Assembly: GCF_000204015.1 (NCBI RefSeq)
Contig: NZ_GL883080.1
Location: 285,166-349,165 of the forward strand
Reading direction: 5' to 3'
DNA: 64,000 bases
Origin: Asticcacaulis biprosthecium C19
GTDB lineage: Bacteria; Pseudomonadota; Alphaproteobacteria; Caulobacterales; Caulobacteraceae
Made by a program: the position numbers and the translations under genes. Under the pieces are notes generated by a model. It had not been told where the DNA came from. It searched no databases and saw only the letters and a program-made list of their open reading frames with translations. Shown piece after piece: positions 16,805-24,784 of the stretch; the first letter of the stretch is position 1; each line of letters starts with the position of its first letter.

Positions 16805-17008
16805 TTACCTTGCTTCCACCCGCACCACATCAAGCCTGAGCATTTAGCCCGCCAATGGCGTATCCGTTACGCCTTCGATAACCTGTTGCCGGTCGGGGCG
16901 GCCTTGGGCGCCATTGTCGATCTGCCGGTCATTGCCGTCGATCACCTGGATGGTGACGGCCGCGCACACGCAACCTGACACCATAGGTGGTCCCGCCCGT
17001 CGCACACC
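16805..17008 (-). pseudogene. Decayed partial copy of the lipoprotein gene at 23730-24338
   Basis: The stretch CACCCGCACCACATCAAGCC and most of the following 160 bases match 23740-23900 closely, then jump to match 24101-24140 (CCATAGGTGGTCCCG), so about 200 bp are deleted internally. A CAG codon of the intact gene is TAA here, giving an internal stop. It is therefore a non-functional fragment of a duplicated locus. Confidence 0.8.
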
Positions 17009-20856: not shown

Positions 20857-22008
20857 TTAGGTCGTGAATAAATCGATGTCGGAGAAAAGTTCGTCTGGGT
20901 AATTGATAGGTACTATTCTCCTTGGTTGTGGCAGGGATACGTCCGTATCAACGGTCTTTCTGTATTCCGCAAGCGCCGCGCATAGCTGTCGCGCTGTCTT
21001 GGATTCGGGCTCAGCCTGGAGCCAGAAAGCGAGCTTTCCTGCCACCCTTTCTAAAATCAGTGGATCATTGTCTCCAGTCGCCAGTAGATGGCCGGCAACG
21101 CCTCGCTTCACTAACTGGAACGCTTGGTTTTTTACGTTACGTCTGAAAGCCCTCGGTACTCGTAGCGTCTGCCCACCTACGGCCAAGCCAGTAACGAATT
21201 TTGGTGAGGAACCGCGCATTAGTTGGGTTTTGCGAGGGTTCACGACAAAACGGCATTGCTCTACTATGCTCTTGACGGCAATTGCAAAGCGCGGTCCGAT
21301 TGAACGCCCAGAGAAAGTCAAATCATCTACATATCGGGTATACGAAAGGCCATATTTTTTAGCCAACGCTGATAACCGTTTGTCCAATGAATTGGCCGCT
21401 AAATTTGCCAGCGTAGAGCTAGTAGCAGCACCTTGAGGTAGGCAGCCATTTTCGAAACAAAGTAGCGCGAGGGACCGGCTAACATTTGGCGAATAGCCTG
21501 CAGCCCGGAAAATGCTTATTCCGAGCGCTAACGGAACTGTATCAAAAAATCCTTTCAGATCGATTCGCAACACACATCTAGCGCCGAGGTGTGCCTTGGC
21601 GTTGCTAAAAATTGAGCGTCCCGGTACACCGCCATGTGCAAATTCGCTGACGGGAAGTTTGTACAATATTTTACTCAGAATCCACTGCTGAATATGAAGC
21701 AGCAATGGTGTGGGTGTATTTATTAACCTGACTCCTCCTTTACGTTTTGGAATGTGAAACGATCTATATCTGCCTTGTGCTCCAGACAGATAGAATGCTA
21801 AATCTCTAATGTTGATGCCAAGAAGCTGGGAAAGATGATTATCTTCAAATATTGGGGGGATATCTTTTTGTTTGCAGTGTTTCAAAAAGTGAAGGTATCC
21901 GCTAATTAGCTGCTGATTGCCTTTCGCTTTATCTAAAAAGAATGCTGCCCACTGTTCAAGATCAATGCTCATTGGGGGTGGCGATACCTTCTCATCAACA
22001 TCGTTCAC
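20857..22008 (-). CDS. Retron reverse transcriptase
   Basis: 383 aa. Reverse transcriptase fold with D150 (RIDLKGFF), LPQG (190-193), and the catalytic YVDD (226-229). Retron hallmarks are present: NAxxH as NAKAH (136-140) in region X, and VTGL (272-275) in region Y. HGGVPGRSI (125-133) is also typical. It would copy the adjacent ncRNA into msDNA primed from an internal guanosine. Start uncertain: ATG at 22008 places the a2 repeat of the ncRNA inside codons 8-11, whereas ATG at 21972 (MSIDLEQW) begins 4 bases after a2. Last gene of the retron operon; its DNA is AT-richer than the flanks. Confidence 0.95.
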   Translation of the reverse strand: MNDVDEKVSPPPMSIDLEQWAAFFLDKAKGNQQLISGYLHFLKHCKQKDIPPIFEDNHLSQLLGINIRDLAFYLSGAQGRYRSFHIPKRKGGVRLINTPTPLLLHIQQWILSKILYKLPVSEFAHGGVPGRSIFSNAKAHLGARCVLRIDLKGFFDTVPLALGISIFRAAGYSPNVSRSLALLCFENGCLPQGAATSSTLANLAANSLDKRLSALAKKYGLSYTRYVDDLTFSGRSIGPRFAIAVKSIVEQCRFVVNPRKTQLMRGSSPKFVTGLAVGGQTLRVPRAFRRNVKNQAFQLVKRGVAGHLLATGDNDPLILERVAGKLAFWLQAEPESKTARQLCAALAEYRKTVDTDVSLPQPRRIVPINYPDELFSDIDLFTT

Positions 22009-22127
22009 AACATGCCTTTATGGCATACTACGCCCCACCGGGGCGTAGGTCAGGACGTGTCCTGACCTGTGCATAAACTTGGCCTTAGCCAACGAGGCGA
22101 GATCGCCTCAAAGTGCTATCGCCACCC
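21976..22127 (-). ncRNA. Predicted retron msr-msd RNA
   Basis: Minus-strand RNA between the winged-helix gene and the reverse transcriptase. GGGTGGCGATA (a1, plus coordinates 22117-22127) is perfectly complementary to TATCGCCACCC (a2, 21976-21986). Directly after a1 comes TAGC, the usual context of the branching G (22116). Inside are stable hairpins: GAGGCGA/TCGCCTC (22094-22109), AGGTCAGGAC/GTCCTGACCT (22047-22068), ACGCCCC/GGGGCGT (22030-22046) and ATGCC/GGCAT (22012-22026). The first is probably msr and the 10-bp stem the main msd stem; the exact msr/msd boundary cannot be read. Confidence 0.82.
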
Positions 22128-22147
22128 TTCATCGATTGTTTAACGCT

Positions 22148-22525
22148 CTATTCGGGGTTGTCCAGAGGTAGCTTTTGAAAAAATGTACGATCGACCAATC
22201 GGAGTTTGGGAAGGTACGGGGCGGATGGATCTAAAGCTTTATGAGTGAGTTCTTCCAAGCTTGGCTTCCATCCACTCTTTTCAGTTCCAAAAAATATACC
22301 TTTCCGTGCGGCAAGTACCCACTCCCTGCCGGTAAGTGTAAGGCGGGCCCGGATTTCTTTCACTTCGGCAAAGTTCATGGCAACCATGCGTTCCAAAAGG
22401 TCTAAGACCTGCGCGGGGCTCAATAGAAAGGCTACGTGAAGATCGTAAAGGTCAGACCATCCGTCTTTCTCAAAGAGAAAGCGAATAATTTCTCGATCAC
22501 TTGATGTGTACTTATTCATATGCAT
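22148..22525 (-). CDS. Retron-associated winged-helix protein
   Basis: About 125 aa. ATG at 22525 or 22519; the latter overlaps the stop of the upstream gene as ATGA. A longer reading to 22573 is less likely. Helical wHTH-like start: TSSDREIIRFLFEKDGWSDLYDLHVAFLLSPAQVLDLLERMVAMNFAEVKEIRARLTLTGREW in two blocks, that is helix-turn-helix plus a wing ending in LTxxGREW. The tail is Leu/Pro-rich. Winged-helix proteins accompany some retrons and are thought to act with the effector. Middle gene of the retron operon; the ncRNA begins about 20 bp after its stop. Confidence 0.82.
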   Translation of the reverse strand: MHMNKYTSSDREIIRFLFEKDGWSDLYDLHVAFLLSPAQVLDLLERMVAMNFAEVKEIRARLTLTGREWVLAARKGIFFGTEKSGWKPSLEELTHKALDPSAPYLPKLRLVDRTFFQKLPLDNPE

Positions 22526-23451
22526 CTGAGTATCGTTTTTCGCATAGCGCTGTCCCTTCTGGTCTCCCACCAAAATATTGGAAATACGTTATTTGGTGTA
22601 TTTCCATTGGAGCGTGAGTATAGAGCTTCAGATTTCTTGTATCCAAGGGTGTGCTTTTTCAGTTTCCCTCGACGACCCATTTCTCCAAGCGTTTTTTCTA
22701 TCGTCTTCATGGTGCCGATGTTCGCAATCGCTTCATCGACTGGATAGAAATCAGTTATTCCTTTGCGCAAAATGTGCGCCGAGAATATTCCGTCAACCGA
22801 GGGGCTTAGTCGCGCAATTCCCACTTCCATAGCTGCGACCGAAGCAAAATAGATTTTTGAACTTGCTCCGACGGCGGCGAGTTGCTTCTTAATCCAGTGG
22901 ATTTGCTTTTCAGCAGTTTCCCCAGTTCCGACGAATTCGTCCACCAAAACTATATTCTCTCTGAAAGGTAATGCGGGCAAGTTCTTTAACCCCGAAACGA
23001 ACGCGGTGGTGTTCCAATCGTGTGCGTTCCATTTTGCTGCTTTTAAACTATAAGCTACCAGTTGAGAACTATCGGAATATTTTGTGTCGTCTGCGGCAGC
23101 TATGTAACAGTTTTCACCGTTAAGATTAAGATCATTCTGTATAAAATCAGATATGCTCTGTATGGATGCGCTGAAATCATTTGCATCAAGAAATGTAAAT
23201 CTATATAATAATTCACAAATCAAAATCTGCTGCTCATGATCTGCGCATTCATCAATCAATTCGGCCAAAGCTTGCTGGTTTTCTTTCAACCAAGGTTGCT
23301 TATCAGTTAAATTGAACAACGTCTTGAAAGTTTCCCTCTCAAGCTTGATTGAGCTTCGCGGCAACGGCGTCTGCGTAGAGACGATCTCTTCATCTGGCAC
23401 AAATTGAGCTTCGACTGACAAAGGGTTTTGATCGGTTGTTTCCCCGGACAC
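22516..23451 (-). CDS. Retron-associated PRTase-like effector candidate
   Basis: 311 aa from a GTG start. The key motif is IVLVDEFVGTGETAEK (167-182), the phosphoribosyltransferase PRPP-binding loop pattern (vvlvDD-x-x-x-TG-x-T), with E in place of the second D. Earlier, IAAADDTKYSDSSQLVAYSLK (117-137) may form the other half of the active site. The N-terminal 110 residues are helical and unassigned. PRTase-like proteins with a winged-helix partner define one of the published retron classes (type III as I recall it), where the protein is presumed the toxic effector held in check by msDNA. Substrate unknown. First gene of the operon, AT-rich. Confidence 0.8.
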   Translation of the reverse strand: MSGETTDQNPLSVEAQFVPDEEIVSTQTPLPRSSIKLERETFKTLFNLTDKQPWLKENQQALAELIDECADHEQQILICELLYRFTFLDANDFSASIQSISDFIQNDLNLNGENCYIAAADDTKYSDSSQLVAYSLKAAKWNAHDWNTTAFVSGLKNLPALPFRENIVLVDEFVGTGETAEKQIHWIKKQLAAVGASSKIYFASVAAMEVGIARLSPSVDGIFSAHILRKGITDFYPVDEAIANIGTMKTIEKTLGEMGRRGKLKKHTLGYKKSEALYSRSNGNTPNNVFPIFWWETRRDSAMRKTILRCI

Positions 23452-23729: not shown

Positions 23730-24338
23730 CTACCTCGGCTCCACCCGCACCACATCAAGCCTGAGCATCTGGCCGGCGAGCGGCATTTCCGTCACGCCTT
23801 CGATCATCTGTTGCCGGTCGGGACGGCCTTGGGCGCCATTGTCGATCTGCCGGTCATTGCCGTCGATGACCTGGATCGTGACGGTCGCGCCCGCCGCAAC
23901 CTGGATACGCGCCTCGAAATCTTCCTGGTAAATGGTGTGCGATACCGACGGATAGTTGTTCAGCGTGTAGGTCTGCTGAGGCGATGACACATCGATACGC
24001 CACTGCGAATAATCCGGCGTGCGAGTCTGCCCGCCCTTATAGAAATAGGGATGCGCTGGATCGGGCGCCGCGCCGCCTTCCATCGTGGTAGGTTCAAACA
24101 GGCCGCGCACGCGCAACCTCACATCATAGGTGGTCCCGGCCTTGCCGCCGAACACGAACGACGTTTCGTGGTGGCGCGCATGAAGACAGGTATCGGGCTG
24201 GGCGGCGTTCTCGCCTATGCAGGCGTCATGCAAGAAGACGCCCTGAAATCCCTTGGCTGCAGCCAACGGATCGCTCGCTGGGGCCGTCGCGCAACCGCTC
24301 ATTAAAAATATAATTGCCAACAATCCTGTTGTCCGCAT
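23730..24338 (-). CDS. Lipoprotein of unknown function
   Basis: 202 aa from MRTTGLLAIIFLMSGCATAP, with lipobox LMSGC, so lipid-anchored in the envelope. The mature part is beta-rich: CLHARHHETSFVFGGKAGTTYDVRLRVRGL, then ATVTIQVIDGNDRQIDNGAQG. Four Cys besides the lipobox position or fewer may form disulfides (DACIGENAAQPDTCLH). It looks like a carbohydrate-binding-type sandwich, but no family is assigned. A decayed copy lies at 16805-17008. It is upstream (in map order) of the TonB-receptor terminator on the same strand, separated by an inverted-repeat element, so it is not obviously in the receptor operon. Confidence 0.75.
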   Translation of the reverse strand: MRTTGLLAIIFLMSGCATAPASDPLAAAKGFQGVFLHDACIGENAAQPDTCLHARHHETSFVFGGKAGTTYDVRLRVRGLFEPTTMEGGAAPDPAHPYFYKGGQTRTPDYSQWRIDVSSPQQTYTLNNYPSVSHTIYQEDFEARIQVAAGATVTIQVIDGNDRQIDNGAQGRPDRQQMIEGVTEMPLAGQMLRLDVVRVEPR

Positions 24339-24475
24339 CCCATTTCCCCTTGCTGTTGGCAGGTCTGCCATTCCTCAGACTATAGGACGCACCGTGATCC
24401 GCGTCACGCAGTTGTTTGGCGCCGGTTCATGCGGCATGGGGAGGGCGCCGAGTCGACAATGTCGGGTGCCTACGG

Positions 24476-24747
24476 TGGAATCGAACGGCGGAACACACGG
24501 ACAGAAGGGGAAAGAAACGGAATTCAGGATGATCTGAAACCCGCTGCGCGGCGGCATCAATTGTAAAGTGGGTCCACAGATTACACAGATTACACAGATT
24601 AAGTAAGAATGAGCTCGATATCTAATCTGTGTAATCTGTGTAATCTGTGGACCCACTTAGGAATAAGGCCGCTGCGCGGCGGGAGACAGGTTTTCCGGAA
24701 TTCCGTTTCTTTCCGTTTCTGTCCGTGTGTTCCGTCGTTTGATTCCA
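24476..24747. repeat. Composite nested inverted-repeat element B
   Basis: Outer arms 24476-24524 and 24699-24747 (49 bp, about four mismatches) use the same words as element A at 1-230. Nested inside is a perfect 36-bp inverted repeat (24566-24601 and 24623-24658) made of GTCCACAGATTACACAGATT-type tandem units, with a 21-base loop. The flanks between outer and inner arms both read GCTGCGCGGCGG. This nested structure suggests one repeat inserted into another or a modular mobile element without a transposase. Confidence 0.85.
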
Positions 24748-24784
24748 TTGTAGGCGCCGGGTCTCGTCACTCAGCGCCGTACGG

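Follow-up and report, generated by a model that had tools for sequence, protein, structure and literature searches.

A type III-A retron operon in Asticcacaulis biprosthecium C19 and the predicted msr-msd RNA upstream of its reverse transcriptase gene

The operon and its surroundings

Three intact open reading frames on the minus strand of a 64,000-nt stretch of the Asticcacaulis biprosthecium C19 genome (hereafter, the window) form an operon in the order PRTase-WH-[ncRNA]-RT, where the bracketed element is a non-coding RNA that sits between the second and the third gene. All operon features described below lie on that strand. The PRTase-like effector gene (22516..23451, exact start uncertain) matches the PADLOC model PRTase_III-A (E 1.1e-77) and the Pfam family PRTase-CE (3.2e-22). 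The winged-helix (WH) gene occupies 22148..22525; its open reading frame as listed starts from 22573, and an ATG occurs at 22525 or at 22519, overlapping the PRTase stop. The match of its product to WH_III-A is weak (E 3.7e-5), and its place and order are kept in the homologous operons. The reverse transcriptase (RT) gene (20857..21972) specifies 371 amino acids from the ATG at 21972 and is recognised by RT_III-A (E 4e-105) and by Pfam RVT_1 (4.7e-21). All three genes are called by PADLOC as parts of a type III-A retron.

Aligned with other RTs, the window RT features the motifs NAxxH in region X (here, NAKAH), Y[VA]DD (here, YVDD) and VTG in region Y. Its best matches are retron RT models, with 349 bits for RT_III-A versus 255 for the highest-scoring model of any other type, and the nearest solved RT structure is that of Ec86. 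In a scan of III-A RTs with the best III-A model, it has the lowest score (349 bits versus 383-446 for the others), and it differs from its relatives in two places, with TSS following the QGA motif where they have TSP, and AHGG where they have AHGF. With an RT of the III-A clade, a PRTase effector and a WH partner at the conserved position, and with retron-lineage RT motifs adjoining an ncRNA that has paired a1 and a2 arms and a predicted priming G in TAGC context, the sequence supports the assignment of this locus to type III-A, as an otherwise ordinary member of a described type. A type II-A retron was considered and set aside: such a retron has an NDT-like effector, and the effector in the window matches PRTase_III-A.

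The PRPP loop of the effector reads LVDEFVGTGET and its C-terminus PNNVFPIFWW; the corresponding patterns, D-x-F-x-G-[TS]-G and PN[NS]xFPxFWW, are kept in nearly all relatives, one of which (L099) has PDN in the latter. There is only one weak sequence match amongst solved structures. The structure model is of low confidence (mean pLDDT 58.6), and its better-predicted middle resembles APRT and UPRT, which are type I PRTases, so that the fold matches support the PRTase core only. A study from 2022 notes that it is not known how retron PRTases act (PMC9122126), and the toxicity and the chemistry of the effector in the window are presumptive.

The GC content is 41-52% along the operon versus ~60% outside, and none of the four congeners listed in a search of 398 genomes yielded the RT, which suggests, without proving, that the operon arrived recently. 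An empty-site comparison within the genus gave no clean insertion boundary: only one congener carries the neighbour gene, and its flanks are rearranged.

Repeats occur elsewhere in the window. A palindromic element of ~335 nt (24444-24778), with partial copies at 1-242, is built around the 9-nt units CACAGATTA/TAATCTGTG; a genome search with its core, CACAGATTACACAGATTA, gave 46 matches, versus none for the reversed control. In addition, the 3' end (23731-23903) of a gene for a 213-amino acid protein (23730-24371) recurs in part, at 88% identity, some 7 kb away (16806-16977), with a stop inside the matching frame, and the two regions have two further short repeats in common.

The paired arms and their covariation

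The intergenic RNA is delimited by two arms, a1 (GGGTGGCGATA; 22117..22127) and a2 (TATCGCCACCC; 21976..21986), which read on the minus strand as 22127-22117 and 21986-21976 and are exact complements over 11 bp with 130 nt between them. Their perfect complementarity and their position before the RT gene had been proposed in an earlier note made from the sequence alone; both are borne out. Arms of 11 bp at a distance of 80-230 nt did not occur in any of 300 dinucleotide-preserving shuffles of the surrounding 231-nt stretch, in which the best arm length was 6.4 on average and 10 at most. The minus-strand RNA from 22127 to 21976 (152 nt), the folding of which had been suggested as a check, attains -77.8 kcal/mol versus -49.0 +/- 4.1 for shuffles (z -7.0), and the fold is unchanged when 30 nt of flanking sequence is added on either side. 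Rfam gave no family at gathering score for this RNA, nor any up to E 1 for 21850-22250.

We compared the operon with seven relatives from genomes and plasmids (L099, L100, L088, L089 from Rhizobium leguminosarum pRlvC, L090 from Acinetobacter cumulans, L101 and L105), which make up a set of eight with the window operon; a set of 11 further includes three operons from viral contigs (L112, L113 and L116). The gene order PRTase, WH, RT is identical in the seven non-viral relatives as well as in the viral contigs. The window RT is 33-42% identical to those of its relatives, and paired a1 and a2 arms occur just before the RT gene in each of the seven.

Covariation was scored on an alignment that joins the 11 bases at the end of a1, the first hairpin (H1; see below) and the 11 bases at the start of a2. 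Nine of the 11 pairs of the a1/a2 stem have changed on both sides with pairing kept, and 97.7% of the a1/a2 cells are paired in the eight sequences. For this set, the covariation score is 0.79 (shuffles, 0.27 +/- 0.04; slid partners, 0.12-0.17); for the 11 sequences, it is 0.756, versus 0.26 and 0.11-0.17, respectively, with none of 500 shuffles scoring as high. Two pairs of the H1 stem have changed on both sides in the set of eight and three of its six pairs in the set of 11. Covariation among homologues, on the presence of which the earlier note had staked its prediction, is thus found in both a1/a2 and H1. Further III-A operons were found in viral contigs by PRTase and RT alignment scans after the consensus rule had been fixed, and the three distinct sequences from there obey it: TA at the end of a1, then G, six bases and the TCGC hairpin, and GG before the TA of a2. 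As L112 and L116 are closely related, there are fewer substitution events than changed cells.

Some other candidates were left out of the comparison. L092/L103 and L104 are III-A-like by their RT, although the RTs of L103 and L104 reach similar scores with III-A models and with those of II-A or XIII; the genes upstream were interpreted as NDT-like together with a WH gene, and these loci did not enter the covariation set. In L055/L102, a retron RT accompanies an RNA that is laid out differently, and the upstream gene is truncated. In the viral contig L119, the hairpin and the junction are similar; it was not counted, as its a1/a2 stem is bulged internally and its PRTase-like gene is built differently. 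A nucleotide-pattern scan of genome contigs based on the RT returned only distant RTs, 24-34% identical over part of the protein, which were not used. Searches at the family and order levels around G398, G563 and G437, covering few genomes, brought up no further member.

Several of these loci show features of their own. The three type III-A retrons from the viral collection (L112, L113, L116) have longer msd hairpins and share AAAGTAT(A/T)GAAGG before the TA of a2. In L089 (195-12425), the retron is flanked on one side by a pair of genes for an AAA ATPase and a UvrD-helicase and on the other by an AAA/phospholipase-D-like pair, in what looks like a defence island. In L119 (1184-3584), a III-A-like RT adjoins a PRTase-like gene for 386 amino acids, a C-terminal extension of which takes the place of a separate WH gene, and the RNA has the same junction of TA and G.

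In the window, a2 ends 3 nt before the ATG of the RT gene (21972-21976), without a clear Shine-Dalgarno sequence, and it adjoins the RT start closely in the relatives as well; pairing of a1 with a2 might, therefore, also influence RT translation.

The predicted priming base and the extent of the msd

The G at 22116, directly 3' of a1, is the predicted priming (branching) base. TA at the end of a1 followed by G is invariant in all 11 RNAs, as is the start of a2 with TA after a G; in the following, a dot marks these boundaries (TA·G and G·TA). TAGC is the commonest priming-G context reported for validated retrons (PMC6868368). The TAGC that had earlier been placed after a1 is real as a priming-G context (22118-22115), except that it straddles the arm end, with TA inside a1; the choice of 22116 itself stands. 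The Retron-Eco1 ncRNA used for comparison occurs at 100% identity in E. coli strain C, next to genes annotated as a retron effector and a retron RT; its junctions are CCCTTA·GC and GACG·TAAGGG. The invariant TA·G and G·TA, the covariation of a1/a2 and the same junction in Retron-Eco1 together make it well supported that G22116 primes DNA synthesis. Synthesis in Retron-Eco1 begins at a cytosine (cited source), which is taken to be the base 5' of the G preceding TA; by analogy, copying in the window retron would start at 21988, unless it includes the junction G, in which case 21987 would come first.

Five hairpins are predicted in the interior, where the earlier note had counted four. H1 (GAGGCG-ATCT-CGCCTC; 22094..22109) is the first msr hairpin, with TCGC invariant in all 11 RNAs. 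The minimum free energy (MFE) fold places after it H2 (TTGGC-TAAG-GCCAA; 22079..22092), a short and weak msr hairpin, of which a TAAGG/TTAGG-like element recurs in most homologues, then H3 (the AGGTCAGGACACGTCCTGACCT stem; 22047..22068), H4 (TACGCCCC-GGT-GGGGCGTA; 22029..22047) and H5 (ATGCC-ATAAA-GGCAT; 22012..22026); DNA copies of the latter three fold, too. H3 corresponds to the stem described before as one of 10 bp and likely to be the msd stem: if loops of 2 nt are disallowed, it shrinks to 9 bp, closed by a CACG tetraloop, and in the MFE fold it has 8 bp.

The probable msd template spans 21987..22069, an upper bound as drawn, judging from its position 5' of a2 and from the G·TA junction invariant in all 11 RNAs. 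Synthesis from a2 must copy H5 and H4 before H3, so that the msDNA probably carries all three hairpins, amounting to ~80 nt, and a single 10-bp stem as the msd is probably an incomplete picture. Such a product falls within the RT-DNA lengths reported, 40-180 nt (PMC12548924). The msd part of most homologues has about three hairpins, often longer than here; the sequence of H3-H5 is not conserved among them, and the covariation support is that of a1/a2 and H1.

With the same boundaries, the msd could be confined to H5 and H4 (about 40-62 nt), with H3 belonging to the msr. We regard this shorter product as rather unlikely, if a serious contender: H5, the hairpin nearest to a2, is often the longest one in homologues, and there are defined internal sites at which retron RTs stop (PMC6868368), but H3 and H4 abut without a linker, leaving no obvious stop site between them. 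A genuine type III-A locus that has lost its activity by decay of the RT or the msd, and makes no msDNA any more, is improbable. The a1-a2 span is the shortest of the first eight operons (142-206 nt in the others), H5 is short, and the two unusual residues stand beside conserved RT motifs; against such decay, the open reading frames are all intact, as are the catalytic YVDD and the PRPP loop, a1 and a2 pair perfectly and H1 is perfect. That the inverted repeat is a control structure in the mRNA of the RT gene (an attenuator or start-codon masking) and not a template for reverse transcription can be practically dismissed: it would fit the closeness of a2 to the RT start codon, here and in homologues, yet it leaves unexplained why an unpaired G is invariant, why there is a hairpin with TCGC, why Retron-Eco1 has the same G·TA junction and why the operon has the composition of type III-A.

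We consider it very likely that the RNA at 22127-21976 serves a type III-A retron as its msr-msd, with G22116 as the predicted priming base. The a1 and a2 arms would pair, and the RT (20857-21972) would prime from the 2'-OH of G22116 and copy the template that adjoins a2 on its 5' side, taking in H5 and H4 and probably H3. The product would be a branched msDNA of roughly 80 nt, with H1 and H2 left over as the msr RNA. If the locus works like the retrons studied so far, the complex of RT and msDNA would keep the PRTase/WH effector inactive; a phage that disturbs the msDNA or the complex would release the PRTase to harm the cell, and the infection would be aborted.

The III-A ncRNAs compared here have a conserved core, a1..TA·G-N6-H1(TCGC)..G·TA..a2. 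Tentatively, and as a possibility we would not yet favour, the window may hold a compact III-A retron in which an msDNA of three short hairpins, not one long stem, guards the PRTase, and the core may be a consensus for the whole family. If so, the core could be used for finding and mapping III-A ncRNAs, Rfam having given no match at the window locus; it is chiefly from the genes that type III-A retrons are identified, and the core could help to locate the RNA in other III-A operons. An ncRNA supported by covariation and with a single predicted priming base offers a direct test in another bacterial group.

Likeness to described retrons

The window retron resembles Retron-Eco1 (Ec86, type II-A) in the end of a1 (TTA·GC), in the start of a2 (TAAGGG after G) and in the location of the ncRNA directly before the RT gene, and the RTs are 31% identical. 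Retron-Eco1 differs in having one long msd stem, versus several short hairpins and a PRTase effector in the window retron. The effector of Retron-Eco1 is NDT-like, not a PRTase. With PRTase-CE (Pfam PF24390) and the housekeeping type I PRTases (APRT, UPRT), the window effector has the PRTase fold and the PRPP loop in common; it differs from them by extra N- and C-terminal parts, including PN[NS]xFPxFWW.

Retron-Sda1 (PMC12548924) is alike in its type III-A1-like RT and ncRNA, but it comes with HipA/DUF3037 and without the PRTase and WH genes, both of which are present in the window. Of the type III-A retrons described, Retron-Bpu1 produces RT-DNA in E. coli but did not protect against the phages with which it was challenged, and Retron-Ppe1 could not be transformed (PMC12548924). 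The window locus differs from known type III-A retrons in its low sequence identity (for the RT, 33-42% to the relatives found here) and in a short interior with three short hairpins. With Retron-Bpu1 and Retron-Ppe1 it shares the same three genes, including the PRTase with its conserved PRPP loop and the WH gene, and an ncRNA upstream of the RT gene (PMC12548924).
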